From Allobosea vaviloviae (GTDB lineage Bacteria; Pseudomonadota; Alphaproteobacteria; Rhizobiales; Beijerinckiaceae): DNA of 64,000 nt. Position 1 is the first letter of the stretch. Every line of letters begins with the position of its first letter. The translations under genes and the position numbers were made by a program. Where the stretch lies: assembly GCF_001298265.1 (NCBI RefSeq), contig NZ_LGSZ01000060.1:1-64000 (forward strand). The letters are read 5' to 3'. The notes under the pieces were generated by a model. That model made no database searches and was not told the DNA's origin. It saw only the letters and a program-made list of their open reading frames with translations. This document shows positions 1 to 17,360 of this stretch, piece by piece.

Positions 1-64
1 CCCCAGCCTCGTGCTCCTTCAGCACCGCAATGATCTGCTCTTCCGTGAATCTTGCTCGCTTCAT
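1..64 (-). CDS. IS3-family transposase OrfA, N-terminal part only
   Basis: Translated from the ATG at 64 the minus strand reads MKRARFTEEQIIAVLKEHEA, the classic first helix of the IS3 (IS407-like) OrfA helix-turn-helix protein that binds the element's ends. Only about 21 codons are in the window, so whether the transposase is intact cannot be judged. The start is supported by the match of the first residues to the family; the short terminal sequence of the element lies directly upstream. Confidence 0.75.
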   Translation of the reverse strand, partial: MKRARFTEEQIIAVLKEHEAG

Positions 65-127
65 CAGTCCGTCCTCATCAGGGCCGGACTCTAACTCCGC
101 GTGGAGGAAAAACTCAGTGGCAGGTCA
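1..127 (-). mobile_element. End of an IS3-family insertion sequence (rest lies outside the window)
   Basis: The minus strand carries the first codons of an IS3 orfA (1-64), preceded by a short non-coding end that stops at about 127 with TGACCTG read inward. IS3 elements usually start with TGA and have a short gap before orfA, so 127 is the likely outer end. The other end and the target duplication cannot be seen. The element marks the left side of a region full of gene fragments. Confidence 0.7.
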
Positions 128-300
128 GGCCAATCCGGCTGTGCGCCCACCGCCAAAATGAGCGTCCTGAAACCGGACGCTCCGAAGGTCAGGAAGGGGG
201 CCAAAACCGCCATCTTCGCCAGGGCAAGTTGCGCCAGTACCTGACATTGACGTCGCGCCACAAACCAGACCTTAGCGGCCTTCGTTTCCGAACAGAATGG

Positions 301-610
301 GCGTTCGAGCGACAGGCTGTAACAGGCGTCGACCTATTACCCGCCTACATGGGATCGCTAGCGCGTCGACCATCGCGCCGACCTTCTCTACCACGCCGAC
401 CTGCACCAGCTGCTGTTGCACCTCTACAATCCCGCCGATTGGCCGTTCGACCTGGCGCTGTTCTTGGACACGATGGATGACGACCCGCGCGAATTGGCCG
501 ACCAGGTCCTTGCCGACTATCGAGCTCTGGGCAGCAACGACGCCGAGTTCGTGCTGTTGGCGTCGAGCTTGGAGCAAGCGACCAGGAATGTTGACGCACG
601 GCCGAGCTAA
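301..610 (+). pseudogene. Unrecognised protein relic, frameshifted
   Basis: Two stretches of protein-like sequence lie in different frames. About 301-360 reads AFERQAVTGVDLLPAYMGSL; from about 362 a second frame continues through LYHADLHQLLLHLYNPADWP and an acidic helix-rich tail to a TAA at 608-610. The second part has no start codon except an internal TTG at 416. This looks like the C-terminal end of a gene broken by a frameshift and cut by the IS3 element. I do not recognise the family. The end overlaps the convergent CD-NTase stop by a few bases. Positions 128-300 hold no convincing gene. Confidence 0.3.
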
Positions 611-1728
611 GCGGCGTCGGGAATGTAGGCGTTGCTCAACGTTCGGTGGACATCAGACCAGCCAAGCTTGGCCATTAAGCCCTGCTCAATTGCCACCTGG
701 TTCGCCAAATCGTCCAGCTCAACCGAGATACTGAGAAGCGCCGACATTTTGGCGTCGCTATCGAGAATGAACCTCAAGCCGTCGGGTGTCCGAAGCGCCC
801 GTGCTTTGTCCTTGTTGCCATAGCACCAATCGAAAAATCGTTGCGCCTCAGCGAGGATGCTCAGTTCGTTGATATACCCTGCACGCAACGCGGCTCCATC
901 TGCGTGATAAAGCAAGGCTGCGATATCAAAGCTAGGCAGATTGGCGGCGTTTTGGTTCTCGGCGTCGTTTTTCACATTCTTGACCAATCGGACCGCCTTC
1001 TTCAGGCCTCCCAGATAAGCCACGTCACGATCGCTGATCAGCTTGATATGCTTGAATGGCCGGTTCGCGATCGTTTCGGGTACCTTCTTGTTCAAGATGG
1101 TGACGTCGCGGTCGTGCTTCTGCCGACTAGCTTGATAGGCTTCGGTGTCATGCCAATGAGCAGGCACCACATCAACCGGCCGTTCAAAGGAACCGCCGGA
1201 AAGAGAAATTGCCTTGCCGCCACTGCAATCGACGGTCGCCCCCCAATATCGTCGCTTCAGCAGTGCTTCTGCTTCGCTGCGCAGAAAAAACAATGCACTC
1301 AGGCTGGTCCGACCTCCAGCGCTTCCATAGAGACTGGCGCGCGCCATGGCGCCGCTGGTCTGGAAGGTAACGAAGCTGCCATCCAGCACCAACAGATCAA
1401 CGTCACTGACGCCTCGAATATGGACGTCAAGAGGCACTGAACCCTGCAGTTCTGTTTCTACGACCACAGCCAAGCCGTCATGCAGCTGTTTCGAGACTCT
1501 CTCGGCTTCGTCGATGCTCTTCTTGGTGTAGGTGCTGTCGACTGCTTGCATCGCGCCAAGCGAGTACCGCGTGTAGGGCTGGCTCAGTGCCCGCCGCTGC
1601 CATTTCTCGTCCAGCGACGCGTGGCGAGAAATCTCAAGCTTGGCGCTGTCGTTTAGCCGGTCAATTCGGTCCAGACCCTTTCGTCGAGTCCGAAGATTGG
1701 TTAGGCGATCATTGATACTCCGGGGCAT
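607..1728 (-). CDS. CBASS CD-NTase (cyclic oligonucleotide synthase)
   Basis: A 373-aa cytoplasmic nucleotidyltransferase, inferred to make a cyclic oligonucleotide alarm signal on phage infection. The pol-beta signature is complete: G96-S97 followed by the metal-binding pair D109-V-D111 (VSDVDLLVL) and a third acid at D186 in ERPVDVVPAHW. The C-terminal half is helical and fits the OAS-like helical domain; the length suits SMODS/CD-NTase proteins. Its ATG shares one base with the stop of the upstream Cap15-like gene (TAATG), so the two are translationally coupled. No Cap2/Cap3 or HORMA/TRIP13 genes are nearby, which makes it a type I (minimal) CBASS. The product and clade cannot be told from sequence alone. 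Confidence 0.85.
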   Translation of the reverse strand: MPRSINDRLTNLRTRRKGLDRIDRLNDSAKLEISRHASLDEKWQRRALSQPYTRYSLGAMQAVDSTYTKKSIDEAERVSKQLHDGLAVVVETELQGSVPLDVHIRGVSDVDLLVLDGSFVTFQTSGAMARASLYGSAGGRTSLSALFFLRSEAEALLKRRYWGATVDCSGGKAISLSGGSFERPVDVVPAHWHDTEAYQASRQKHDRDVTILNKKVPETIANRPFKHIKLISDRDVAYLGGLKKAVRLVKNVKNDAENQNAANLPSFDIAALLYHADGAALRAGYINELSILAEAQRFFDWCYGNKDKARALRTPDGLRFILDSDAKMSALLSISVELDDLANQVAIEQGLMAKLGWSDVHRTLSNAYIPDAA

Positions 1729-2363
1729 TATCTCTGCTCCTTCGTGAGCTGCATCGTGCCAAAACTGAAACGGCCGAGGCCATTGAAGTACTCGCCGTCC
1801 CCAGATTGGCGATCGAGTGAGAAAAGGATGTCAGCGGAGCCGCGATGTGGATGTAGGTCGACCTGGCCGACACGAGGCTCATTGCGGTAGGTGTAAAGAA
1901 GTCGCCAGCCGACGCTGCTTTCGCAGAGGATCGCAGCTGTAACGCTGGTCGATGTTGATTGCTTTGTTTCCAGGCGGACGCGGAGCTTGTCCCACCGCTG
2001 GATGATGATCAGCGTGCCCTTCCAGGGATCGCCTAATGTTTTGTCCGGATTGACTGTTCGTCCCTTCACGGCCCAGCGGCCGCTGAGATTGGGAACGCCA
2101 AGAATCTTGCCGATAGGCGCAAAGCGCCAAGCAAAGTTGTCCAAGACCCAATAGAGCCACGCCCAAGTCAGGGCGGCGCTAGTTAGCGATGCGATCCAGA
2201 CGGTCCATTGCCTAGGAAGTCCTCTGATCTCCAGCCAGGCCCCCAGTCCGGACGACAGCAAGACACCCGCGGCGGATACAGCGGCAGAGACCAAGGCTAG
2301 GTACCGGCCAACCTTCGCTCGGTTAAACCCGCCGAGCAAAGCATACTCGTGTTCTACAGGCAT
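1728..2363 (-). CDS. cap15: Cap15-like CBASS effector, two TM helices plus beta-barrel domain
   Basis: A 211-aa protein with two predicted transmembrane helices (about 20-43 and 53-75) and a C-terminal beta-rich domain (about 91-211) that opens with LSGRWAVKG, contains WKGTLIIIQRWDKLRV and ends with GLGRFSFGTMQL. This arrangement is that of Cap15, a CBASS effector whose barrel binds the cyclic nucleotide and which then oligomerises and disrupts the inner membrane. It is the first gene of the pair and overlaps the CD-NTase start by one base. No strong Shine-Dalgarno is visible. Assignment is by domain layout and motifs; ligand specificity is unknown. Confidence 0.8.
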   Translation of the reverse strand: MPVEHEYALLGGFNRAKVGRYLALVSAAVSAAGVLLSSGLGAWLEIRGLPRQWTVWIASLTSAALTWAWLYWVLDNFAWRFAPIGKILGVPNLSGRWAVKGRTVNPDKTLGDPWKGTLIIIQRWDKLRVRLETKQSTSTSVTAAILCESSVGWRLLYTYRNEPRVGQVDLHPHRGSADILFSLDRQSGDGEYFNGLGRFSFGTMQLTKEQR

Positions 2364-2415
2364 CTAACCCAACCGCTGGAGCTATCGGCTATCCCGTGAA
2401 CAACTTGGGAAGCGC

Positions 2416-2444
2416 GGTATAGTAAGGCAAGATGTTCTTGTTAA
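2416..2444 (-). promoter_or_regulatory. Predicted sigma-70 promoter of the CBASS operon
   Basis: On the minus strand a TTAACA box (2439-2444) lies 17 bases before TATACC (2416-2421). Transcription would start near 2409, giving a leader of about 45 bases before the Cap15 ATG at 2363. The stretch is AT-rich compared with its surroundings. Confidence 0.5.
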
Positions 2445-2495
2445 ATTCTCCCCAGCTTTTTGCGCCCCCACTCGGTGTCGCAAATGTCCTAAGTC

Positions 2496-2642
2496 TCTCG
2501 GCGCCCCGCGTGCAGGCCAATAGCTCAGCAAAAGCGTGTTGCAAAACTCGTCGCACAGCCTGACAACACTATGAGCCAGGTCGCCGCAGCAATCGGTGTT
2601 CACCGGGCGACGCTTTACCGAGCATTGGGCGCGGGCAACTGA
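2496..2642 (+). pseudogene. C-terminal relic of a site-specific recombinase (resolvase/invertase)
   Basis: An open stretch without its own gene start ends in NTMSQVAAAIGVHRATLYRA and a TGA at 2640-2642. This is the C-terminal helix-turn-helix of serine resolvases, preceded by a basic, Gln-rich linker. The catalytic N-terminal domain with its serine is absent, so it cannot be active. It is one of several broken pieces between CBASS and the next intact gene and points to past transposon or phage activity. Confidence 0.55.
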
Positions 2643-2654
2643 GTGGCGCAACTC

Positions 2655-2882
2655 TCACTGGTCGGGATATCGAGTTTGGTATCGCTCGTCAGGCGCGAGC
2701 CAATCAGCGAGATAGCTGAGGGGATCTTGCTCGCCCAGCATCGCTCGCGCCAGCGCCAGGCGGCTTTGAATGTGCTCCCGGCGATCCTCACCGAGGTGCT
2801 CCAGCCGCTTCTCCGCCTCCACGAAGAAGCGCTCAACAGCGGTATAAGCACCGACTATCTCAGACGCTGACTGCTGTCGGGG
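2655..2882 (-). pseudogene. Unrecognised protein C-terminal fragment
   Basis: The minus strand has about 75 codons with strongly protein-like composition, including VERFFVEAEKRLEHLGEDRR and DPLSYLADWLAPDERYQ, ending at a TGA (2655-2657). No start codon or ribosome binding site is visible upstream, where the sequence runs into the TctC relic on the other strand. The charged helix suggests a small helical protein. It directly abuts the resolvase relic tail to tail. I do not recognise the family; it is probably a truncated gene. Confidence 0.35.
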
Positions 2883-2890
2883 CGACGGAT

Positions 2891-3109
2891 GTGCGCTATC
2901 GCGGCGCCGGGCCCGCCCTGAACGACATCGTCTAGGGCCAGATCGAGCTTTTGGCGGCCGGCGATCGGCCTTGCGAAAAGCGGCCAGATCAGGCGCTCGC
3001 CGTCACGATGCCGAAACGCTGGCCAGCCTTGCCCGAAGCGCCGACCTTCGACGTGTCTGAGGTGAAGGGCTACGAGACCGTCGCCTCGTTCGGATTCACG
3101 CCCGCAGCA
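2891..3109 (+). pseudogene. Relic of a TctC/Bug-family solute receptor
   Basis: Reads VRYRGAGPALNDIV, an in-frame TAG at 2933-2935, then GQIELL and, after a missing segment, TMPKRWPALPEAPTF and VKGYETVASFGF. These are signature pieces of tripartite tricarboxylate transporter receptors; the intact paralogue at 54728-55705 has YRGAGPALQDIVAGQ at the equivalent place. Both ends, the signal peptide and part of the middle are lost and the frame is interrupted, so no functional protein is made. Confidence 0.65.
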
Positions 3110-3437
3110 ATGGCGACTTTTTCAATGGTATGGGCGCGCATTTGCCAGAACTCCGTCCGTTTCAGGACGGCATTGGGGGCGGACGCTGACATTGGCTTGA
3201 TCGATTGGGCGCGTTGCTCGCGCAAGACAATGCCCATGCAGTTGCCGCGAGGAACTGCAACTTCGACATGGAGCTACTCATTGGCCGAACGATCTCGTGG
3301 CCTTAGCCCTTTCCTCGCTTAGGCGGTCGTGTTCACCTATCAATGGTCGGTCTGAGCCGTTAAGTGAGGTAGTCGATGGGGCTGCCGTAGACCATGCTGA
3401 CTGGTAGCGAACTACTTTGCCGTTGCAGGATGCGGGC
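3110..3437 (+). other. Gene-poor stretch with a possible coding relic
   Basis: No intact gene. One plus-strand frame (3121-3306) is protein-like but has an internal TGA: GMGAHLPELRPFQDGIGGG before the stop and WLDRLGALLAQDNAHAVAAR after it, ending in TAG. The family is not recognised. The last 130 bases before 3438 hold nothing I can name and probably include the promoter of the next gene. Confidence 0.3.
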
Positions 3438-4427
3438 ATGATCCCTAACCGCCTGATTGCCAACCTCGCGAATGCAGCAGATGCGGCCCTATCGCCGATC
3501 TTGCAGACAGGAGCCTCGTCCCATGGGCAAGCTCCCCCCACCGGCGAGGTGGGATTTGTCGCAGCGGCAGTTCTCGGGGGAGTGCCCGCAATCGCCAGTG
3601 CATGGAACCCTATCCTTGGGCCGGCGGGTTACCATGTAAGAATGAGCGGCGTCTTTTGTCATAAAGCCCCTCAAGCGACATTCACTGACTCTGCCGGCAA
3701 CAGTGTAAGCTGCGAACTCGCTGATCTCTTGGTTGTCGTTGACGACCTTACGTCCGGTGGCTCAGGGCAAAGGTGGGCAGCGCTGATCCAAGCGAAAATG
3801 GCGGCCGCGGGTGGCGGTAAGACGCTCACCGGTACGCTCGATCTCCGACAGCTCGATCTTTTCACGCGCTGGCCGCTATTCTCGCTTCCTACTGGATATC
3901 GGCAGGGTAATCGCGATTTCGCCACATGCGGACATAGCGGTGCGCCTATCGACTGCGGCCGTTACGGTTTGATCGATGGCCAGCCGAGTCCTAAGTGGCA
4001 CCAGCAGGCACCTTCGACGGTGATGTCGGCAGGCGGAGATCAACTAGGTTCGTTTTTGGCGCATATGGTCGAAGTGGGCCAGTCGGGGTTCGGTCGCGAA
4101 GCTACCGGTACAACTGACGACTGGTCGATGACCGTCGACGAACTGCTGAACTTAACCTACGCGAGCGTATTTAACTACGTGACGGGGTTTGGCCCGAGCA
4201 ATCCGCAGCCACGCCAAACGTCCGCTTTATCGCTCGTAGCGACAACTCCCCGAGCATTCCGCGTCTCAGATCGCCCGATATTTTACTATGTTCGAGACAA
4301 CGTCTGGTGGGAAGACCGTCCTCCGCCGTCCGGAGGTAAACCTGAGTTCCCCGACGACGGACTCCCTGAGATGAGGGGATTGAGCGTGCTGCGGATCGGC
4401 ATAGGCGGTGACGGTATCGAGCGGTGA
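3438..4427 (+). CDS. Hypothetical protein with a possible PD-(D/E)xK-like motif
   Basis: A 329-aa protein (ATG at 3438; a TTG seven codons upstream is possible). It has no signal peptide or membrane segment. A conspicuous feature is CELADLLVVVDD (E93, D96) followed 20 residues later by AALIQAK (Q118, K120). An acidic residue at a strand end followed by QxK on the next strand is the usual look of PD-(D/E)xK nucleases, but this is a motif reading only. Three cysteines (C74, C92, and one near 168) and a Trp/Tyr-rich C-terminus (FYYVRDNVWWEDRPPP) are also visible. It is the only plus-strand gene between the CBASS and the Z1 operon, convergent with the latter. It could be a standalone defence gene or an island passenger. 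Confidence 0.55.
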   Translation: MIPNRLIANLANAADAALSPILQTGASSHGQAPPTGEVGFVAAAVLGGVPAIASAWNPILGPAGYHVRMSGVFCHKAPQATFTDSAGNSVSCELADLLVVVDDLTSGGSGQRWAALIQAKMAAAGGGKTLTGTLDLRQLDLFTRWPLFSLPTGYRQGNRDFATCGHSGAPIDCGRYGLIDGQPSPKWHQQAPSTVMSAGGDQLGSFLAHMVEVGQSGFGREATGTTDDWSMTVDELLNLTYASVFNYVTGFGPSNPQPRQTSALSLVATTPRAFRVSDRPIFYYVRDNVWWEDRPPPSGGKPEFPDDGLPEMRGLSVLRIGIGGDGIER

Positions 4428-4659
4428 CATCGCGGCTAGCGCTGAGCATTAGGCGAGGCGCAGGCGACGCGTCGGCCGGGCGATAACGTCGGGCCTGTCC
4501 TTGCACAATGGGATATCGCTTTCGCATGGAGCATCGGTGCCCGATTGCCACGGGTGAATCTTCCGCGCTGGTTCGATCACGCCGGCTTGAGATTGCATTT
4601 CCGAATAAGCCGCGCAGAATTGGCTGGCGGATCCGGGGGGCGTGCCCCACAACCCCTCA

Positions 4660-5724
4660 TCAGAGGGAATGGACCATCCCTGCGAGTTCTTGCTGCCATC
4701 TCGGCGCTGGATTGAAAGCTGATACCTGGTCGGGCAAATGCATCGCAAAGCTTAAGCTAGCCGGCGCGACAAAGGTCTTGGCTACGGCCTCGCGCCTCAG
4801 AAGACGCATTGCTGTGTCTGCGACACGATAGAGGCGTGGCTGGAAGGTTGCCGTGTATCGGGTCGCGTAAGCGCTCCAATCATGCATCGTCGCGTGCCGG
4901 TAGCCCACGCCGTTCGCTGCGCCATATGCCTCCACGCGTGTCAGCAAAGCTAGCTGAAGGGGCCCGAATTCTGTATCGTTGCCCAGCATCGCAAGAACCT
5001 GATCGACGATGGTCGGGAGGCTTTCCCCCATCGCTGTCGATGGCATCAAGCCGACGCTGAGCAAATGCAATTGCTCCTGGGCGCCGCTGGGAAGTTGGGC
5101 CGCCTCAAGCTGGTGGAAGCCAGAAAATTCGTGGATCGAACTCACGGACTGGGTCGTCTTTACCTCGATCGAGTTCGCTCCAAAAATGAAGTCGCGCCCG
5201 CCGCCGGGCTGCCAGCCCTGCCAAGCCTCGAGAATGATGCCCTTCAGATGATCTTGAGATCCGATACTGAGAAGGCTCTGTCTCAGCACGATGAGTTCAC
5301 CGATCAATCCTATGATGACATTTTCCGGCAATGCGCCGCGCCGGATCGCCATCTCGATAATCGGCTCCACGTCACTGAAAGCGGCTTGCGAATCGTCCCC
5401 GACACCCAAGCCAGCACGAAGGAGTTCGACAGCGATCAAGGCAGCCACCGAGGCAAAATGAGGGGCTGATGGAAGGACGATGCGGGTCGCCGGAAACGGG
5501 TCGCCTCCGCTTTGCGGTTGCCATTCGCCATGCTGCAGGTGCCGGCGAACGAGAGGTGACGTCGCCACGAGTTCGGCGCCGCGAAGAAAGATCTCGTAGT
5601 CCCCACTGGCGCCCCGCGCAACGGCCAGCAGCTGGGAGAGCCACCGTAGGTTCCTCGCTTCTCCGTCCGGCGCCTGCAACGCTTCAAGATCGTCGCGGAG
5701 CGCCTCAAACGTGGGATTGTTCAT
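4660..5724 (-). CDS. PD-(D/E)xK motif nuclease-like protein (DUF4420 type)
   Basis: A 354-aa protein, last gene of the minus-strand methylase/Z1 operon. The start at 5724 overlaps the stop of the Z1 gene by four bases (ATGA), far better than longer in-frame starts lying inside Z1. The central motif GGGRDFIFGANSIEVKTTQS carries D...ExK with the strand spacing of restriction-endonuclease folds; the surrounding pattern and length match the DUF4420 family that accompanies Z1-domain proteins. It is the likely DNA-cutting component. About 230 bases downstream (4428-4659) hold no recognisable gene before the convergent gene ending at 4427. Confidence 0.75.
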   Translation of the reverse strand: MNNPTFEALRDDLEALQAPDGEARNLRWLSQLLAVARGASGDYEIFLRGAELVATSPLVRRHLQHGEWQPQSGGDPFPATRIVLPSAPHFASVAALIAVELLRAGLGVGDDSQAAFSDVEPIIEMAIRRGALPENVIIGLIGELIVLRQSLLSIGSQDHLKGIILEAWQGWQPGGGRDFIFGANSIEVKTTQSVSSIHEFSGFHQLEAAQLPSGAQEQLHLLSVGLMPSTAMGESLPTIVDQVLAMLGNDTEFGPLQLALLTRVEAYGAANGVGYRHATMHDWSAYATRYTATFQPRLYRVADTAMRLLRREAVAKTFVAPASLSFAMHLPDQVSAFNPAPRWQQELAGMVHSL

Positions 5725-8582
5725 GCCCGCAGCGCCGCGACGTGATCGGGGCCGCCATGCGGCAGACCAAGCCCCATGGCGACCAAGTCGTTCGGAGCGG
5801 TATCGCATCGGATGACGTGGAAAAGGACAAGGCCAGGATGGCCCCGAGGGCGCCATGTGGCGCCCCCCTCCAGCGACGGAAAAGGTCGTGTGCCATGATA
5901 ATAGTAATCGACCAACTCGTCGCCGATATAGGAGCCGCCGTATCCCCGGGTTCCCCACAGCGTCTGCAGTGATTTTTCGCTGGGCGAAAGCTGGCGGGTC
6001 ATCGCCCTGATTCCGTGCTTTATAAGTCGGGGGTCTTGAGCCTTCTGGTCGCCGAAGCGCACCGCGACGTAGAAGCGGGGTCCGGGCGCTGAACTGGCAT
6101 CGGCATAGGACCAAGGCACGTCGGGACGGTCTGTCGGGTAAAAGCCTGGTGCGTGGCGGTCGCCTCGTAGCGCCTCCCAGAGCCGAAGGTAAGCGGCAAT
6201 CGAGTATGGGCACGACTGTGGCTCGACGGCGTAGGCCTGCGGCGCCTGGCCGGGCGGCCGAAAGAGCCGGTCGGTCAGTCCGAGAAGGGCTTCGTAATGG
6301 TGCCAGCGTAGGCTCAATTCGTTGCTGGGATCAGGATCGTGGTGGCCATAACGAAAGCGATCGAGCAGGTCAGCCAAGGCGAGGAGTCCGATCGGCTGTT
6401 CCCGAATGATCCCGCGCTCGAAGCTATTGGCGTCCGCCAACGGAACCCATCGACCGTTGCTGCAGATATCGCTCAGCACGTCCACATTCGCATTTGCCAG
6501 CCCACCATCCACCGTCTCGACCAAGCGAATGGATGGTCGCGGCCCCGGCGAGAGCGGGACCTTCCGGCTATCAACCTTGCTGGTCGCGAGGAACGAGGCA
6601 CCCTGCAGCACCAGGATCGAAGAGGCCGCATTACCTGTCTCATCTTCCATCTTCCGCATTATCTCGGACTTCAACGCGTTGTCGTTGACGTGGTAGCTCC
6701 GAAATAGCTGGAGTTGGTCCTCAAAGGTCAGCACACGACAGAACGGCAGATGCGGCCCGCGATAGCCGAACCACCTTTGCATCTGCATCTGGGTGTCGGC
6801 TGCCGGTTCGGTCGCGCTGCGTAGGAAAAGGCTCGTGGATAGTCCCTCTAAGGTCAGCCCGCGAGAAAGCACGTTACCCGCGACGAAAATGGACAAAAGA
6901 TCCGGCGCTGGCGCGTAGCCGCCAGCGACCTGTTCGGGCTGAAAGCGCGGCCGGTCGTCTGAGGCAGGATCGCTGTTTAGGACTCTGATCGCGACATTCG
7001 GAAAAATCTCTTCGATAAGGATGCAACGGATCGCTGCCCACGAGGCGAGAGCGATAGGTTGGTAGGGCGCGCTCGGCATCGTCGCAAGCGCGATGCGGGT
7101 CGTCTCGAACTGTGCAAGCCAAGCCTGCCATGTTTGTTCCTCGGCATCCAACCGCTTCACGAGGCCTTCGACAGACATTCTCAGCTCGGGTAACCCGATA
7201 TCCTCGTCGGGAACGACGGTTCGTTGCTCCTCGCCCGGCAAAGACATCGACCAACGAACGATGTCGACCGCCGCACTGAAATGGTCTCCCTTTCGTACTG
7301 AGGGGTGGTGCAGCATCGTGTGGGCTAGAGGAGACGCGGCCCTCGCCGCGTCGGCCGTATCGAAGATGGCGGAGCGCGCCATCGTGAGCGACACACCGCT
7401 CTGGTGAAGCCGAACGGCAGCGCCTACCAGAAAGCTTCGCAGCGCATCGGAGAGCATCTCCCAGCGCAGGGCCTGATGACGCAGATCGAGTTCCGCCTGA
7501 CTCTCGCCGACGCGAAGCTCGGGGAACGGTGAGGGTTTGACCAGGGCAGCCCCGGGAATTCCTTGCAACCGCTCGTAGAAGATCTCGCCTCCGCAATAGT
7601 AGCCGCTTAAGCCTCTCGGCTCTGTGAACGTAAGGGAGCGAGGGCTAAGGGCGCCGGAACCTCCGGGCACGCGCAACGCCGCGTTGAAATCGCGAGGCGA
7701 TAGAGGGTTGTGCGTCGCTTGTAGAAAGTTGGCCTGCGGCGTTGCGGTGTAGGCCACGTAGCTTGCCAGAAGGTTCTGGTGGCGGGTTTCCGAGAGGTCC
7801 GAGTCGCCGCTCCAAAGAGCGGTGATTAGGCGTGGCGTCACCTTGAGCGAGCTTTCACTATCGAGGACTGACGCGTCGTCCGCCTCATCGTCGAGCAGAA
7901 GCATCTTGAACGGCGCCTGCCGCGCGTTCAGGAACGGCTCGTCGATAACATGCTGCAGAAATCGGCGCAGCATCAGCAGATGGTCGTCCTCCTTGGGAAC
8001 CACGCAGATGATTGGCCGGCCGGCTTTTAGGGCCAGCTTCGCCAGTTGGCGCTGAAGGTAGCGGGAAGGCTCTGCTCGCTGCTCGTTCAGGATGTCCGCG
8101 GGCTGCGGTAGAATGAGCCGTTCGGCGCGGCGCCAGTAGGCGTTCTCGGGGGTCGAGCCGTCGAGTTGTGCTAGCAAGCGTTCATAGGTCTGCAGCCAAA
8201 GGCCGACGCGGGTCCCGGCCAAGAGGATGATCAAGTCGACCCGACGGTCGAGAGCCATCGCGGCGACGCCCAGCATGCTAGCCGTCTTGCCGGACTGGAC
8301 CGAGCCGACGACCATGCCAGTCCGAACGCGGCCGGCAGGCCAAGCCGCTTGCTCAGCGTCGGGTCCCGACTCCGGGATGGCTCTGTCGATGATATAGCGC
8401 GCGTCATCCTCTAGGATCTGTACCCCGCTCTCCGATTGGCGGGTCACAAGGGCGGAGCGGTAACGCGACCACCAGTCGTCTTGGCCCGCGCTTGAAGTAT
8501 CGACACCAATCTGGCCACGCTGTTTTTGTGCGGCCGGCACCACAGACAACGGTCCGATCCAGGATTGAAGATCGACGACCAT
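5721..8582 (-). CDS. Z1-domain ATPase of a restriction-like system
   Basis: A 953-aa P-loop protein of the Z1 family, related to superfamily II helicases and found in modification-linked defence operons. Visible motifs are Walker A GSVQSGKT (93-100), a Walker B-like LLLDDEADD in the first third, VLSRGLTLEGLSTSLFLR and the arginine-bearing QMQRWFGYR of the second RecA-like domain, then a C-terminal region without recognised motifs. Presumably it uses ATP to remodel or scan DNA for the nuclease. The ATG shares a base with the DUF262 stop (TGATG at 8582) and the stop overlaps the nuclease gene, so the three are co-translated. Confidence 0.85.
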   Translation of the reverse strand: MVVDLQSWIGPLSVVPAAQKQRGQIGVDTSSAGQDDWWSRYRSALVTRQSESGVQILEDDARYIIDRAIPESGPDAEQAAWPAGRVRTGMVVGSVQSGKTASMLGVAAMALDRRVDLIILLAGTRVGLWLQTYERLLAQLDGSTPENAYWRRAERLILPQPADILNEQRAEPSRYLQRQLAKLALKAGRPIICVVPKEDDHLLMLRRFLQHVIDEPFLNARQAPFKMLLLDDEADDASVLDSESSLKVTPRLITALWSGDSDLSETRHQNLLASYVAYTATPQANFLQATHNPLSPRDFNAALRVPGGSGALSPRSLTFTEPRGLSGYYCGGEIFYERLQGIPGAALVKPSPFPELRVGESQAELDLRHQALRWEMLSDALRSFLVGAAVRLHQSGVSLTMARSAIFDTADAARAASPLAHTMLHHPSVRKGDHFSAAVDIVRWSMSLPGEEQRTVVPDEDIGLPELRMSVEGLVKRLDAEEQTWQAWLAQFETTRIALATMPSAPYQPIALASWAAIRCILIEEIFPNVAIRVLNSDPASDDRPRFQPEQVAGGYAPAPDLLSIFVAGNVLSRGLTLEGLSTSLFLRSATEPAADTQMQMQRWFGYRGPHLPFCRVLTFEDQLQLFRSYHVNDNALKSEIMRKMEDETGNAASSILVLQGASFLATSKVDSRKVPLSPGPRPSIRLVETVDGGLANANVDVLSDICSNGRWVPLADANSFERGIIREQPIGLLALADLLDRFRYGHHDPDPSNELSLRWHHYEALLGLTDRLFRPPGQAPQAYAVEPQSCPYSIAAYLRLWEALRGDRHAPGFYPTDRPDVPWSYADASSAPGPRFYVAVRFGDQKAQDPRLIKHGIRAMTRQLSPSEKSLQTLWGTRGYGGSYIGDELVDYYYHGTRPFPSLEGGATWRPRGHPGLVLFHVIRCDTAPNDLVAMGLGLPHGGPDHVAALRA

Positions 8583-10459
8583 CAGATCGGGATCTTGCGG
8601 ATTTCGATCAACGCCTGGATCGCGCTGTCGCCGTATCGCTCGGTAACCTCCGAATGAGCCAAAGACAGGTCAATCCCGAGTGCTTCCAATATCGATGTCG
8701 ACGACGCCGCAATGTGCGCCCACTGCGTCTTGTTCTGGGTGCTTTCCGGCCCGACCATCACGGCGGTGCGCTGACGGACCGCCTCTAACCCGCCGATGAT
8801 GCGATCCTGCTCGCCCATGATGACGAGTACGAGGCACGCCATGAGGCTCGCCACGACCGGAAGCTCCTCCCACCGTGACGCCATCTCGCTCTTGCCTTTG
8901 CGTCTGAACCTCGGGTGCCATGCATCCGAAACCGTCTGGTGAAGCTCCAAGGCCGCGATAAGATCGGTCGAGAGATTGATGAGCGTTTGGTTCGAGGTGA
9001 ACTGCGCGAGGCGGCCACCATCGATCGCACGTAGGAACTCATCAATGTGACTCGCCGTGGACGGCGTTCGGTACGCACCGTCGGGCGCCTGGGCGGGTTT
9101 CATGATCAGGGTCGCCACGGTCCACAGCAGTATCTTGGTCCGACGAAAGCGCGTTACTCCGAAGCCTAGATCTTTGATGATTTGATGCGCATCCGGCTTC
9201 GGATCGATACCTGCCTCGACCAATTCGGGCGCAATGGTCGCTTCGGGCCTGTCGCCGCTTACAAAAAGAATTGCTCGCGATATGGCTAGGTGGTTGAAGA
9301 CCGCGTTGCGAATTTCTTCGGCATTGAGCTTTATTCCTTGTTGATTATATAACTGAAAGACACGATGGATGTCCCTAACCTTTGTATCTTTATAGATCAG
9401 GACAGGTATGAAATAGTCGCAGGGCGTCTCGAAGAGATCAGCCACCGTGATCGTTTCTCCAGCTATCGTAACGGACTCATTTCTGATATCGCAGTAGTAG
9501 CGTCCACCCAGCTTAACGAGCGGATGACCCTCGGGGTAGCTCTTCGTCTTGAACGGGAGGTAGTTGTCTCGGATATCCGCCGCGCGCAATGAGTTGCGCC
9601 GTGCGAATTGAGCGAAGTTGGTCTTGAAGACCTCGAAGTCTTTCATCTGCTTCGCGTTCTCCAGCCCTTCCGGGTGGCTACCCATGAAGCGGAGGATCGC
9701 AGTTAGACGTTGTTTTCCGTCTACGATCTGAAACCGTTGGCTGTTCGACATCTTGGCCAAGATGATCGACGGCAAGGGGATACCACTGAGAATCGACTCG
9801 ATGAGCATCTGCGAATCTGAGTTCGACCAGACGAAATCACGCTGGTAGGTAGGGTTGAGGTCGAGGTGCTGTTGCGATGCGCGACCCGCAAGGTCGTAGA
9901 TGCGCCACTTGTCCACGCTGGCATTGATTGAGAGCGGCTCGACGATGGGGGGCTCATCCCACGCCTGGACCCACGCCTCGGTGGCGGCGGCGACCGATCG
10001 CTCCTCTTCCTCAATGAGCTGCAGGAACATGGTCCGGTTGCTGGCGGCCCGGCTGAGCCGCTCTTCCAGATTTTGCGCTCCGAACTCGGTAAGCCGGACG
10101 AGCCCATCGATGACGACGAAGCTGACAGCCGCTTTCCCGGGGGAAAGCTCATCAAAGAGCCGAAGCGCCACCGTCTCTGGAGAATCCTCACCATCGAAGC
10201 TGGCATCCAGGTTGAGCCAGATTCCGACTTGGAGCACTCGCGAGAGCCAATCGCTGGACGTGAAGGAAACGTCCGCGCCGTCAAAGGCCTGAGGCGCTTT
10301 TACGCCGCGGAGCTTCGGCACGAAGCTGGGCTGCGACAGGTCGCTTAGCAAGGAGCTTATCTGGTCGTAGTCTAGATCGATCACGCCGCTCTCCACCCCA
10401 CGCTTCCCCATGCTCCTAGGCAACTTCTTTGGGCTCGCGGCGGACTGGCCCAAGACCAT
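8582..10459 (-). CDS. DUF262 (GmrSD N-terminal-like) protein of the Z1 operon
   Basis: A 625-aa protein with a DUF262 core: LNPTYQRDFVWSNSDSQMLI (about 198-217), IPLPSIILAK, then FQIVDGKQRLTAILRF. The DGxQR motif in this ParB-like fold binds or hydrolyses nucleotide in GmrSD-type enzymes. The N-terminal 190 residues are not recognised; the C-terminal half is helical. No HNH motif of the GmrD type (DUF1524) is seen, so cutting may depend on the separate PD-(D/E)xK partner. The ATG at 10459 lies 27 bases after the methylase stop; an alternative ATG about 16 codons in is possible. Confidence 0.8.
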   Translation of the reverse strand: MVLGQSAASPKKLPRSMGKRGVESGVIDLDYDQISSLLSDLSQPSFVPKLRGVKAPQAFDGADVSFTSSDWLSRVLQVGIWLNLDASFDGEDSPETVALRLFDELSPGKAAVSFVVIDGLVRLTEFGAQNLEERLSRAASNRTMFLQLIEEEERSVAAATEAWVQAWDEPPIVEPLSINASVDKWRIYDLAGRASQQHLDLNPTYQRDFVWSNSDSQMLIESILSGIPLPSIILAKMSNSQRFQIVDGKQRLTAILRFMGSHPEGLENAKQMKDFEVFKTNFAQFARRNSLRAADIRDNYLPFKTKSYPEGHPLVKLGGRYYCDIRNESVTIAGETITVADLFETPCDYFIPVLIYKDTKVRDIHRVFQLYNQQGIKLNAEEIRNAVFNHLAISRAILFVSGDRPEATIAPELVEAGIDPKPDAHQIIKDLGFGVTRFRRTKILLWTVATLIMKPAQAPDGAYRTPSTASHIDEFLRAIDGGRLAQFTSNQTLINLSTDLIAALELHQTVSDAWHPRFRRKGKSEMASRWEELPVVASLMACLVLVIMGEQDRIIGGLEAVRQRTAVMVGPESTQNKTQWAHIAASSTSILEALGIDLSLAHSEVTERYGDSAIQALIEIRKIPI

Positions 10460-10486
10460 TCCGATCGCTGCACCAAGCCGTGCCCC

Positions 10487-11830
10487 TTAGCCGACGCTGG
10501 CTAACGCCTCGATTTTCTCATGCATATGCGTCAAGGGCAGCGAAGGTTGGGCGCGCTCGACTTCTGTCGGTAAGCCCAGGAGCGCTGTTGCAACCGCGTT
10601 TATGACGTCGACGTTCACGGCATTTCCAAGCGCCTTGAAGGCCGCGCCCTGCGTGGCAGGCAAATGCTCCAGTTTCCCCATGCTTTGAAGACGTGCGCAT
10701 TCGCGCATTGTCATATAGCGGCGCTCCCAGGGAATAACGGGGACCTGGCTGGTGGTGAGGGCAACGAGCGATGGGGAGGACAGCGGCCGCTTGGCTCGGA
10801 TGCCCGAGGCCCGAAACTGAATGATTGTGCTCCAGATGTCGCGAGGCCCGCCCTTCCAGTTCCATTCAAGCTTCTGGAAGCTCGGCGCGAAGGTACTGAT
10901 GCTCGGCAGCCAAGGATCAATCACAGCCTTGTGGCGTCGATAGAAAGCTCGATTTTGCTCGATAAACGCGACCTTCCAGTCCGGGAAGGCGTCGTCCGGA
11001 TCGCGTGCATAGGCCGGCAGAGCGGCGAGCACGGCCTCGGCGGACAGATCCTTTAGCGGCGCCCCCAGGGCGCCCTTGAAAGAGCGGATCTCCGTCAACC
11101 CATGCTTTGTCGGCGTCGCCGTCTTGAATGGGTAGGTCGCGCCAAACTCCATGGCCCAGATAGGAAAGGAGGGGAGGTCCTCGTCTGCCGGGATGGCATC
11201 AAGGAATGCCTGCCACGCCGTCAGATAGGTGATGAAAGTCTCCGTCAGGACGCGAGCCCCAGCAGGATTCTTGTCGAGAACGTTGCTAATGCTGAGTTGA
11301 TCGGCGGAATGCGTCGGCTTCGGCCACTCGAAGCGATCCAAGCCGGTACGAGCACCGACGATGATGGCTCGATCTCGGACCTGCGGAACGCCGAAAAGGT
11401 GCGGCGACAGACGCGCCGAGTCGATCGCGTAGCCAGCGTCGCGCAGCCTTTCCTCGATCCGGCGCCAAGTCTTACCCGAATCGTGTCGCATCAGATTGGG
11501 CACGTTCTCGATCATCAGAAAGCGCGGCTCGTGCTGATCGAGGATCCTGATAACGTAGTCGAAGAGATCGCCCCATTGGGGGCAGTCGAAGCCCTTTTGA
11601 TCTCCGGCTTTGGAGAATGGCTGGCACGGGAAGCCGGCGCAAAGGATGTCGTGAGCTGGGACCTCGACGTAAGAAGTCCGTATGTCGCCGTGCGGCTTCA
11701 GCCCGAAGTTCTTCTCGTAGAGCGCCGCCAATGTTGAATCGAGTTCTGACGCGAACACCGCTTTATGGCCAAGGCCCGCGAGCGCCTGGTGGAAGCCGCC
11801 CAGGCCGGCGAAAAGGTCGATAAATTTCAT
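10487..11830 (-). CDS. DNA (cytosine-5-)-methyltransferase
   Basis: A 447-aa m5C methyltransferase that would transfer a methyl group from SAM to C5 of cytosine in a specific site. Motif I FAGLGGF (7-13), motif [10 protein letters not shown] with nucleophile C69, motif VI MIENVPN, motif [18 protein letters not shown] and motif [19 protein letters not shown] are all present and in order; the variable region between VIII and IX holds the target-recognition domain. It is the first large gene of the operon and most likely protects self DNA from the downstream proteins. The recognition sequence cannot be predicted here. Confidence 0.93.
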
Positions 11831-11879
11831 CGCAGCGCGCTCACGACAGGGGAAGCTTGAGCGGCAGTTTCGCGTCAGT

Positions 11880-11903
11880 GTGACGATCGTGCAGGTTCGT
11901 CAC
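11880..11903. promoter_or_regulatory. Inverted repeat before the methylase operon
   Basis: GTGACGA (11880-11886) and TCGTCAC (11897-11903) form perfect 7-base arms around a 10-base centre, 50 bases upstream of the methylase ATG and just past the stop of the small RHH-like gene. The spacing suits an operator for a dimeric DNA-binding protein, as in controller sites of restriction-modification operons. No protein is shown to bind it. Confidence 0.4.
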
Positions 11904-11906
11904 TGC

Positions 11907-12029
11907 CTAGCGCACCATGTACTGTAGGTTCACAGATGGCTTCTGACGCTCGCCAAGCTCGCGCAGGGCGGCGTACTCGGCCGCATCTAAGGCAACGGTG
12001 AACCTCTTCATCTGAGTCGGTTGAGCCAT
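11907..12029 (-). CDS. Micro-gene, 40-aa ribbon-helix-helix-like peptide
   Basis: ATG at 12029, TAG at 11907-11909. The peptide contains MKRFTVALDAAEYAALRELG, a beta strand (KRFTVAL) followed by an amphipathic helix, as at the start of CopG/Arc-type ribbon-helix-helix repressors. It stops at NLQYMVR, where a full RHH domain would have its second helix, so it is either a truncated repressor or a minimal peptide. It reads in the same direction as the methylase 76 bases downstream, with the inverted repeat at 11880-11903 between them, so a regulatory role is plausible. It is too short for homology alone to settle. Confidence 0.5.
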   Translation of the reverse strand: MAQPTQMKRFTVALDAAEYAALRELGERQKPSVNLQYMVR

Positions 12030-12073
12030 GATTCCCCGCGCACGCCAGAATGCACTAAGTTGGTGCGCGTTGT

Positions 12074-12238
12074 CTAACTCAACCGATCTCGAAGCTGCTC
12101 ACAAAAGTCGGGGCGTTCGTCGGTCGGTTCCTCAGTCGCGCAGATGTTGATGTCGCCAAGAATCGTCCGTCCTGACGCCGTCTCGATCAGCGTCATGTCG
12201 CCGTTGCCGACTTTGAAATGCTGGGTCTTCGCAGCCAT
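12074..12238 (-). pseudogene. Truncated N-terminus, possibly of an MBL-fold hydrolase-like protein
   Basis: ATG at 12238, TAG at 12074-12076, 54 codons. The start QHFKVGNGDMTLIETASGRT followed by ILGDINI resembles the first two strands of MBL-fold proteins of the ComEC-like type, which begin with a VGNGDxTLI strand; the catalytic HxHxDH loop would lie further on and is missing. The C-terminal part (EEPTDERPDFCEQLRDRL) ends abruptly. It is probably a gene decayed after deletion, though a short expressed peptide cannot be excluded. Confidence 0.4.
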
Positions 12239-12242
12239 CGCT

Positions 12243-12327
12243 TCAGTTCGGGTCTGCAGACCTCAAATCGACGTTCATTTTATATCCCCTCTGCGATCTG
12301 GCGGCGAGAAACATACACCTCGCCGCC
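12243..12327 (-). promoter_or_regulatory. Leader with a 9-bp stem hairpin and an 11-codon ORF
   Basis: GGCGGCGAG (12300-12308) and CTCGCCGCC (12319-12327) make a perfect 9-bp stem with a 10-base loop. On the minus strand it is followed by AGAGGGG and, 7 bases on, an ATG (12278) opening MNVDLRSADPN and a TGA (12243-12245), four bases before the next ATG (12238). The ribosome binding site is stronger than that of most genes here. No T-run follows the stem, so it is not a clear terminator for nrdJ, which ends at 12495. The rest of 12328-12494 is AT-rich with no gene. Confidence 0.35.
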
Positions 12328-12494
12328 AATCAAAGCTCGACCGCCCGAAAAATAGTCATTCGTGACAGTCTGAATTGCCGCGCTAATCGCGAAATCTCAG
12401 ATAACTAGCTGATTAGTCGTCTGTTTTTCGAAAATTCGCGCCCTTCCGAGTGACGAGCCAATTTGCCGTCGCCACCAATCATCAAGTCGGCATA

Positions 12495-15400
12495 TCAGGA
12501 ACAGCCAGTTGTGCTTCCACAGGTGTTGCACTTCAAGCACGTGCCGTTCCTTACCAGCGTGAAATTCCCGCACTCGCCGCAGCTGTCGCCGACATAGCCC
12601 TTCATGATCGCCTCGGCGCGGCGCTCGGTTGCGCTGGGCTGGGCGGCCGGGGCCGAGAAGCCGAGCTTGGCCATCTCGGCTTCGCCGTAAGCTTCAGGTT
12701 CCTCCTTGAGCGCGGTCGGGCTCGTGGTGATCAATGAGGTCACCGTCGCGCCGCCGCGCGCCACCGTCTCGGTACCGACAGCGAAGCCGCCGCCGCCCTG
12801 GATGGCGTGGAAGTTCATCGGCTTGCCGCGGCGAAAGCCGGTCGAGGCCAGCGGGCTCGTGGTGATCGGCGTCACGGTTTCGGGCGCCTTGTCCTGGCCG
12901 ACGCCGCCGCCGATCACGTCATGGCCGATTTCGCTCGGATCGATATGAGCGAGGTCGTGCCGACCGAGATAGGAGATCGCCAGCTCGCGGAAGACATAAT
13001 CGAGGATCGAGGTGGCGTTCTTGATCGACTGGTTGCCCTGCACGAAGCCAGACGGCTCGAAGCGCGTGAAGGTGAAGGCCTCGACATACTCCTCCAGCGG
13101 CACGCCATATTGCAGGCCGAGCGACACCGCGATCGCGAAGTTGTTCATCATCGCACGGAAGGCAGCGCCCTCCTTGTGCATGTCGATGAAGATTTCGCCG
13201 AGCCGCCCATCGGCATATTCGCCGGTGTGGACATAGACCTTGTGGCCGCCGACGACCGCCTTCTGGATGTAGCCGGTGCGGCGGGAGGGCATCTTCTCGC
13301 GCTCGCGGACGACCTTCTCGACGATGCGCTCGACGATCTTCTCGGTGAGCTGCGTCGTGCGGGCCGCCATCGGCTGCTGGTAATGCGCCTCGACCGCATC
13401 CTCCTCGTCGTCCTCGTCGGCGATCAGGGCCGAGTTGAGCGGCTGGGAGAGCTTGGAGCCGTCGCGATAGAGGGCATTCGCCTTCAGCGCCAGCTTCCAG
13501 GAGAGCATATAGGCGCTCTTGCAGTCCTCGACGGTGGCGTCGTTGGGCATGTTGATGGTCTTGGAGATCGCGCCCGAGATGAAGGGCTGGGCCGCCGCCA
13601 TCATCCGGATATGGCTCTCGACCGAGAGATAGCGCTTGCCGATGCGCCCGCAGGGGTTGGCGCAGTCGAAGACGTTGTAGTGCTCGATCTTCAGGTGCGG
13701 CGCGCCTTCCAGGGTCATCGCACCGCAGACATGGACGTTGGCGGCCTCGATCTCGGCCTTCGAGAACCCAAGAAACGGCAGCACCTCGAACGCGGGATCG
13801 TTGAGCTTCTCGGCCGGGACCTTCAGCGTGTTGACGAGGAAATCCTCGCCCAGCGTCCATTTGTTGAAGACGAACTTGATGTCGAAGGCGGCCTTGAGGT
13901 CCTTCTCGATCGCGTCGATCTTGTCCTGGCCGAAGCCGCGCGCCCGCAGCGAGGAGTGGTTGATGCCGGGCGACTGCGCCAGCGTGCCGTGGCCCACCGC
14001 ATAGGCCTCGATCTCGGCGATCTCATGCTCGCGGTAGCCCAGCGCGCGCAGCGCGTCGGGCACGGCGCGGTTGATGATCTTCCAGTAGCCGCCGCCGGCG
14101 AGCTTCTTGAACTTCACCAGGGCGAAGTCGGGCTCGATGCCGGTGGTGTCGCAATCCATGACGAGGCCGATCGTGCCGGTCGGCGCGATCACGGTCGCCT
14201 GGGCATTGCGGTAGCCATGCGTCTCGCCGAGCGCGAGCGCATTGTCCCAGGCGATGCGGGCGCGCTCGGACATCAGCGTCGAGGAGCCGCCGAGGCGGGC
14301 GAGCGTACCATGGTCGAGGGGAACTGGCGTGACCTCGAGGCCCTCATAGCCGGTGGCCATGCCGTGGGCGGCGGTGCGGTGGTTGCGGATGACGCGCAGC
14401 ATATGGGCTGCGTTCTTCTTGTAGCCGGGGAAGGGGCCCAGCTCGCCCGCCATCTCGGCCGAGGTCGCATAGGAGACGCCGGTCATGATCGCGGTGAGGG
14501 CGCCAGCCAAAGCGCGGCCCTCGTCGGAATCGTAGCCGAGACCCATGGTCATCAGGAGGCCGCCGATATTGGCGTAGCCGAGGCCCAGCGTGCGGTACTC
14601 GTAGGAGAGTTCGGCGATTTCCTTCGAGGGGAACTGCGCCATCGTCACCGAGATTTCGAGCACGACGGTCCAGAGCCGGCAGAGATGCTCATAGGCCGCG
14701 ACGTCGAAGGCCTTGGTCTCGTTGTCGTAGAACTGCAGGAGGTTGGCCGAGGCCAGGTTGCAGGCGGTGTCGTCGAGGAACATGTACTCCGAGCAGGGAT
14801 TGGACGCGCGGATGCGGCCCGACGCCTTGCAGGTGTGCCAGTCGTTCATCGTCGTGTTGAAGTGCAGGCCCGGATCGGCCGAAGCCCAGGCGGCGAAGCC
14901 GATCTTCTCCCAGAGGTCGCGGGCCTTGAGCGTCTTCATCACCTTGCCGGTGGTGCGGCCGGTCAGGTTCCAGTCGCCATCCGCCTCCACGGCGCGCAAA
15001 AAATCGTCGGTCAGCGAGACCGAGTTGTTCGAGTTCTGGCCGGAGACGGTGAGATAGGCCTCCGAATCCCAGTCGGTGTCATAGATGTCGAACTTGATGT
15101 CGGTGTAGCCCTGCTTGGCGAACTGCATCACGCGCTTGATGTAGTTGTCGGGCACCATCGCCTTGCGGGCGAGCTTGACCTCGCGCTTCAGCGCCGGGTT
15201 CTTCTCGGGATCGAAGCAGGAATCGCCTTCGCCTTCACAGTTCACGCAGGCCTTGAGCACGGCCTTCATATGCTTCTGGACGGTCTTGGAGCCCGTGACG
15301 AGAGCCGCGACCTTCTGCTCCTCCTTCACCTTCCAGTCGATATAGGTCTCGATATCGGGGTGGTCGACATCGACCACGACCATCTTGGCGGCGCGGCGCG

Positions 15401-16220
15401 TGGTGCCGCCCGACTTGATGGCGCCGGCCGCGCGGTCGCCGATCTTGAGGAAGGACATCAGGCCCGACGAGCGGCCGCCGCCGGCGAGCTTCTCGCCTTC
15501 GCCGCGCAGCATCGAGAAGTTCGAGCCGGTGCCCGAGCCATACTTGAACAAGCGGGCTTCACGGACCCAGAGATCCATGATGCCGCCCTCGTTGACGAGG
15601 TCGTCCTGCACGCCCTGGATGAAGCAGGCATGCGGCTGGGGATGCTCGTAGCTCGACTTCGACTTGGTGAGCTTGCCGGTCTTGTAGTCGACGTAGAAAT
15701 GGCCCTGGCTCGGGCCGTCGATGCCGTAGGCCCAGTGCAGACCGGTGTTGAACCATTGCGGCGAGTTCGGCGCGACGCGCTGGGTGGCGAGCATGAAGCG
15801 CAGCTCGTCATGGAAGGCCTGCGCGTCCTCCTCGGACGTGAAGTAGCCGCCCTTCCAGCCCCAATAGGTCCAGCAGCCCGCGAGCCGATCGAACACCTGC
15901 TTGGAGGAGATCTCGGAACCGTAGCGCTCACCTTCCGGGAGCTTGGCCAGCGCCGCCTCGTCGGGCACGCAGCGCCAGAGGAAGGAGGGAACGTCGTTCT
16001 CCTTGACCTTCTTTAAGGCCGCGGGGACACCGGCCTTGCGGAAATACTTCTGCGCGAGCACGTCGCTGGCAACCTGCGACCAGGATTCGGGCACCTCAAT
16101 GCCTTCCAGGCGAAACACGATCGAGCCGTCGGGGTTGCGGATCTCACTGACGGCGGATCGGAAGGGAATCGCGGCGTAAGGCGACTGGCCGGCTGAGGTG
16201 TAGCGGCGCTCGATGCGCAT
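12495..16220 (-). CDS. nrdJ: Adenosylcobalamin-dependent (class II) ribonucleotide reductase
   Basis: A 1241-aa cytoplasmic enzyme that reduces ribonucleotides to deoxyribonucleotides using an adenosylcobalamin-derived radical. The length and the long form with extra C-terminal region are typical of alphaproteobacterial NrdJ. The finger-loop [20 protein letters not shown] carries the radical cysteine; [18 protein letters not shown] follows further on, and the C-terminus is a zinc-ribbon, [22 protein letters not shown], thought to relay electrons. No nrdAB is in the window, so this may be the main dNTP source. The start is the ATG at 16220 after a leader of about 265 bases. Confidence 0.96.
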
Positions 16221-16492
16221 GATCCGTCATCCCAATGCTTGCCGCGGGCGACATGCCTCGCGCGGCCGGTTGATCACCGGCTCCTGGTTCAGCCCAACTC
16301 GGTGTGATGCCCCATGGACGTCTCGGCGTTTGTACCCCCCGCCTCGATTCGTCCGGTTGCTTCCAGAACGATCCGCAGGCGGCCGCTCGCTGCCGCCGTT
16401 TCCGGCGTGCCGCGTGGTGATCGCCTCGACCCCTCTGGGAACTCTTTTGCGGGTGTCGATGGCGTTTCCGCCGGCCGTCACGCGACTGTCAA

Positions 16493-16521
16493 AACCTAAC
16501 CCAGCCCCCCTTGGGCGTCAA
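16493..16521 (-). promoter_or_regulatory. Predicted promoter of nrdJ
   Basis: On the minus strand TTGACG (16516-16521) is followed after 17 bases by TAGGTT (16493-16498). Transcription from about 16486 would leave a 5' leader of about 265 bases. That leader holds GCCGGT / ACCGGC arms (16265-16281) next to the sequence AACCAGGAGCCGG. I saw no convincing NrdR box. Confidence 0.45.
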
Positions 16522-16949
16522 GGATTAGTGCCATGCAGAACCTGTGGGCACGACATCTGGTGGGTCTGTGTGAGTAGCGGGGATAACTTTGGCGGTCCCG
16601 GCTAAGCCTTGGGAATCACGGGCGGAATCCGCGAGTGCTGCGAGATTGCCACAATCGCAGCCCGAATAAATCCCTCAAATGCCGGCGATCAGGGTTAACA
16701 GAACGTCGCTGGGGCCGGCCTGGCAGATGGCTCCGAAGGCTGCGTCTGCGCCGGCGAGGACAAGTACTTGAAACCATGCGGTGACGGGCCATCGGTCGGC
16801 TGTGGACTGCCTCATTCGAATCGAGGCCGAATCGTGGCGGTCGTGTTTCCTGCGCTGCCAGTACCGTGCTGCTGCCCGCGGGCTGGACAGCGCGGCCACG
16901 CCTCTTCATAAGTCGCGCAGACAAAACCGATCGCGACAGGCGCATTCCC
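16522..16949. other. Intergenic region between nrdJ and the NDUFA12 gene
   Basis: Divergent upstream regions of nrdJ (minus) and the NDUFA12 homologue (plus). A minus-strand ORF from an ATG at 16815 to a TGA at 16678 would encode a 46-aa hydrophobic peptide (QVLVLAGADAAFGAICQAG), but it lacks a ribosome binding site and homology I can name. I see no RNA gene or repeat here. Confidence 0.3.
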
Positions 16950-17360
16950 ATGAAACCCTGGCTGCTGCAGATCTTCACCTGGTGGAACGGCCAGACCATC
17001 GGCACGCGCTTCCACACCTGGCGCTTCGGCGAGCGCGTCGGCCAAGACGAGTCCGGCAATGTCTATTACCGCACCAAGGGTGGGGTGAAGGACAAGGCGC
17101 TCGGCATCCAGCGCCGCTGGGTCGTCTATAACGGCGACACGGAAGCCTCGAAAATCCCGCCCGGCTGGAACGGCTGGCTGCATCACACCGTCGACGTCGC
17201 GCCCTCCGAGGAACGCTACGAGCCGCGCGAATGGCAGCAGCCGCATCAGCAGAATTGGACCGGCACGGCGCTGGCCTACCGGCCCAAAGGCTCGACGCTG
17301 GCCGAGGGCGAGCGCCCGGCGGCGACGGGTGACTACGAAGCCTGGACGCCCGGCCGCTAA
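16950..17360 (+). CDS. NADH:ubiquinone oxidoreductase NDUFA12-family subunit
   Basis: A 136-aa accessory subunit of respiratory complex I, the bacterial counterpart of mitochondrial B17.2/NDUFA12, at the membrane-arm/hydrophilic-arm junction. The family signature IQRRWVVYNGDTEASKIPP followed by GWNGWLHHTVD is intact. The start MKPWLLQIFTWWNGQTIGTR is chosen because the family begins there; longer in-frame extensions have no support. Supernumerary subunits of this kind are typical of alphaproteobacteria. A strong terminator follows, so it is probably transcribed alone. Confidence 0.92.
   Translation: MKPWLLQIFTWWNGQTIGTRFHTWRFGERVGQDESGNVYYRTKGGVKDKALGIQRRWVVYNGDTEASKIPPGWNGWLHHTVDVAPSEERYEPREWQQPHQQNWTGTALAYRPKGSTLAEGERPAATGDYEAWTPGR

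Follow-up and report, generated by a model that had tools for sequence, protein, structure and literature searches.

The start of a 64,000-nt stretch of Allobosea vaviloviae DNA (contig NZ_LGSZ01000060.1, positions 1 to 64,000, assembly GCF_001298265.1; hereafter the window) carries a conserved set of four genes whose products probably mark the host's DNA and cleave phage DNA that lacks the mark. The genes, all uninterrupted and on the minus strand, encode a DNA (cytosine-5) methyltransferase (10487..11830, 447 aa; PF00145, E 1.1e-60), a DUF262 protein (8582..10459, 625 aa; GmrSD_N, 91.7 bits against a cut-off of 33.2), a PF10593 (Z1) protein (5721..8582; E 1.2e-23) and a PD-(D/E)XK nuclease of the DUF4420 family (4660..5724, 354 aa). 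The nuclease gene starts at 5724, and a longer open reading frame (ORF) from 6213 arises from an earlier in-frame GTG. A preliminary description had read the four genes as one unit with overlaps and a 27-base gap; their coordinates, strand and junctions (a 27-base gap, TGATG and ATGA) bear this out, and all four products exceeded their cut-offs in the Pfam search that it proposed. Its overall interpretation is partly supported, whereas the observation itself is confirmed.

The complete set was present in all 12 relatives whose locus is not cut off before the cassette end, with identical gene order in 10 of them, so the four genes do occur together elsewhere; co-inheritance was seen for three of the four. 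The methyltransferase gene was found in 13/13 relatives (in one, L035, it is annotated as two pieces) and its GNAVN motif was kept in 13/13 rows. The motifs of the Z1 protein were present in 12/12 rows. The PF10593 model also matches in the control genome of Corynebacterium glutamicum, presumably the CglI subunit. In the nuclease, whose D...ExK signature had been noted before, E143, D178, E187 and K189 were invariant (11/11).

The DUF262 protein consists of an unassigned N-terminal part (about residues 1-175), the DUF262/GmrS NTPase domain (197-388; bases 9296-9871) and a helical C-terminal part with no recognised nuclease. Its domain was matched in 13/13 members at E 0.1 or better and none of these had a Pfam match to the DUF1524/HNH nuclease half at E 0.1; the preliminary description had already noted the lack of an HNH half in the window's protein. 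The methyltransferase is likely the self-marking enzyme; it would mark self DNA while DUF262 would couple the system as a switch driven by nucleoside triphosphates (NTP). We give about an even chance to this reading, a restriction-modification system that depends on ATP and has DUF262 for its coupling switch. CglI offers precedents for such an ATPase powering cleavage at specific sites at a high cost in ATP (PMC4267653) and for translocation (PMC5737866).

The main rival, which we regard as rather unlikely, is that DUF262 reads the host mark and switches the nuclease by NTP hydrolysis, as is described for SspE (PMC9646914). Closest to the DUF262 model are BrxU and SspE, which both read modifications; BrxU is described as active on DNA with 5mC, 5hmC and glc-5hmC (methylated, hydroxymethylated and glucosylated hydroxymethylated cytosine; PMC10952713). 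Sensing in SspE is stated to require Y30 and Q31 (PMC9646914), for which YQR at 205-207, invariant in the DUF262 family here, is our candidate equivalent. However, a match containing QR occurs at this position in BrxU too, which makes the motif look like a general DUF262 feature, and the methyltransferase varies more freely than a tightly coupled partner might be expected to.

It is improbable that the cassette targets modified DNA, as its DUF262 relatives GmrSD and BrxU are described to do (PMC10952713), because the methyltransferase gene in every relative would create a risk of self-cutting if 5-methylcytosine (m5C) were the target, and because the related CglI systems are restriction systems carrying a methyltransferase. 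Abortive infection, in which activation of the same parts kills or arrests the cell rather than clearing phage DNA, also appears improbable, as two AIPR queries found no AIPR gene in 14 DUF262 loci.

Beside the cassette lie two CBASS genes on the minus strand, which make the window start a defence island: one encodes a CD-NTase (607-1728; PADLOC cyclase, 5.5e-141), the other a Cap15/2TM effector (1728-2363; PF18153, 5.6e-31). In nine genus relatives the match at the DNA level reaches only as far as the end of the neighbouring ribonucleotide reductase gene, indicating a variable flank. Although such a site and such neighbours would suit unrelated defence genes gathered by chance, the shared content, order and co-inheritance described above make this very improbable. 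Pfam, PADLOC and NCBIfam gave no hit for a 336-aa ORF (3417-4427, plus strand) that is convergent to the operon, and none of 13 cassette loci holds a relative. The plasmid cassette of L035 is directly followed by a ParB-like protein resembling PADLOC PD-Lambda-5_A (14862-15971), and a sacsin-domain gene (5972-7084, minus strand) lies upstream of it.

Upstream of the methyltransferase is an RHH/CopG-like regulator gene (11841..12029, minus strand; Pfam RHH_1, E 0.039, under its cut-off), in which an in-frame TAG (11909-11907) breaks the coding sequence. An uninterrupted version (~63 aa) precedes the methyltransferase in seven cassettes (L035, L040, L041, L042, L044, L046 and L047) and occurs in one GHKL-type operon, L083. 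The methyltransferases of the compared RHH-carrying loci form one group (74% identity to the window's for L083, 69.8% for L035), to which L049 belongs without an RHH-like gene. A pair of TGCA boxes 10 or 20 bases apart lies upstream in 8/8 RHH-carrying relatives, in regions picked after the boxes had been noticed and with L035 and L041 being near-copies; the window has an operator remnant (12037..12055, minus strand) with one TGCA and one degenerate box. The TAG and the reduced operator may reflect decay or a sequencing error.

In the MZA system (mzaABCDE), MzaE is the AIPR protein and MzaB the GHKL/ATP-binding protein. Neither AIPR nor GHKL/ATP-binding genes were matched in positions 1-17000 of the window, and DUF262 stands instead; the contig begins at base 1, so that a gene lying past that end would have escaped the search. 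The PF10593 protein is partially similar to MzaC but under the equivalog cut-off (NF041933, 109.4 bits against 1500), and MzaD likewise fell short (NF041934, 30.2 against 420). The predicted system of Miller et al. 2022 comes in types I and II, the latter adding AIPR and associated with MORC, and its text does not name DUF262 (PMC9523054). CglI, NgoAVII and BceSIV use a PLD-superfamily nuclease and their listed genes do not include DUF262 (PMC4267653, PMC5737866), whereas our nuclease gene matched DUF4420 and no PLD family in Pfam. The NTPase domain is shared with SspE, BrxU and GmrSD, described as carrying the DUF1524/HNH half that the 13 cassette members lack by Pfam (PMC10952713, PMC9646914, PMC4619093). 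The third MORC/paraMORC operon type resembles the cassette in its superfamily II (SFII) helicase with a DThhQXuRhFG motif, its restriction endonuclease (RE)-fold nuclease with E-D-ExK and its frequent methylases but has a GHKL ATPase where the cassette has DUF262; other GHKL families are reported there to take the place of MORCs, and DUF262 is not named (Iyer et al. 2008, PMC2292703). The set is a poorly known relative of defence systems already described, with one energy-consuming component seemingly swapped for a different one.
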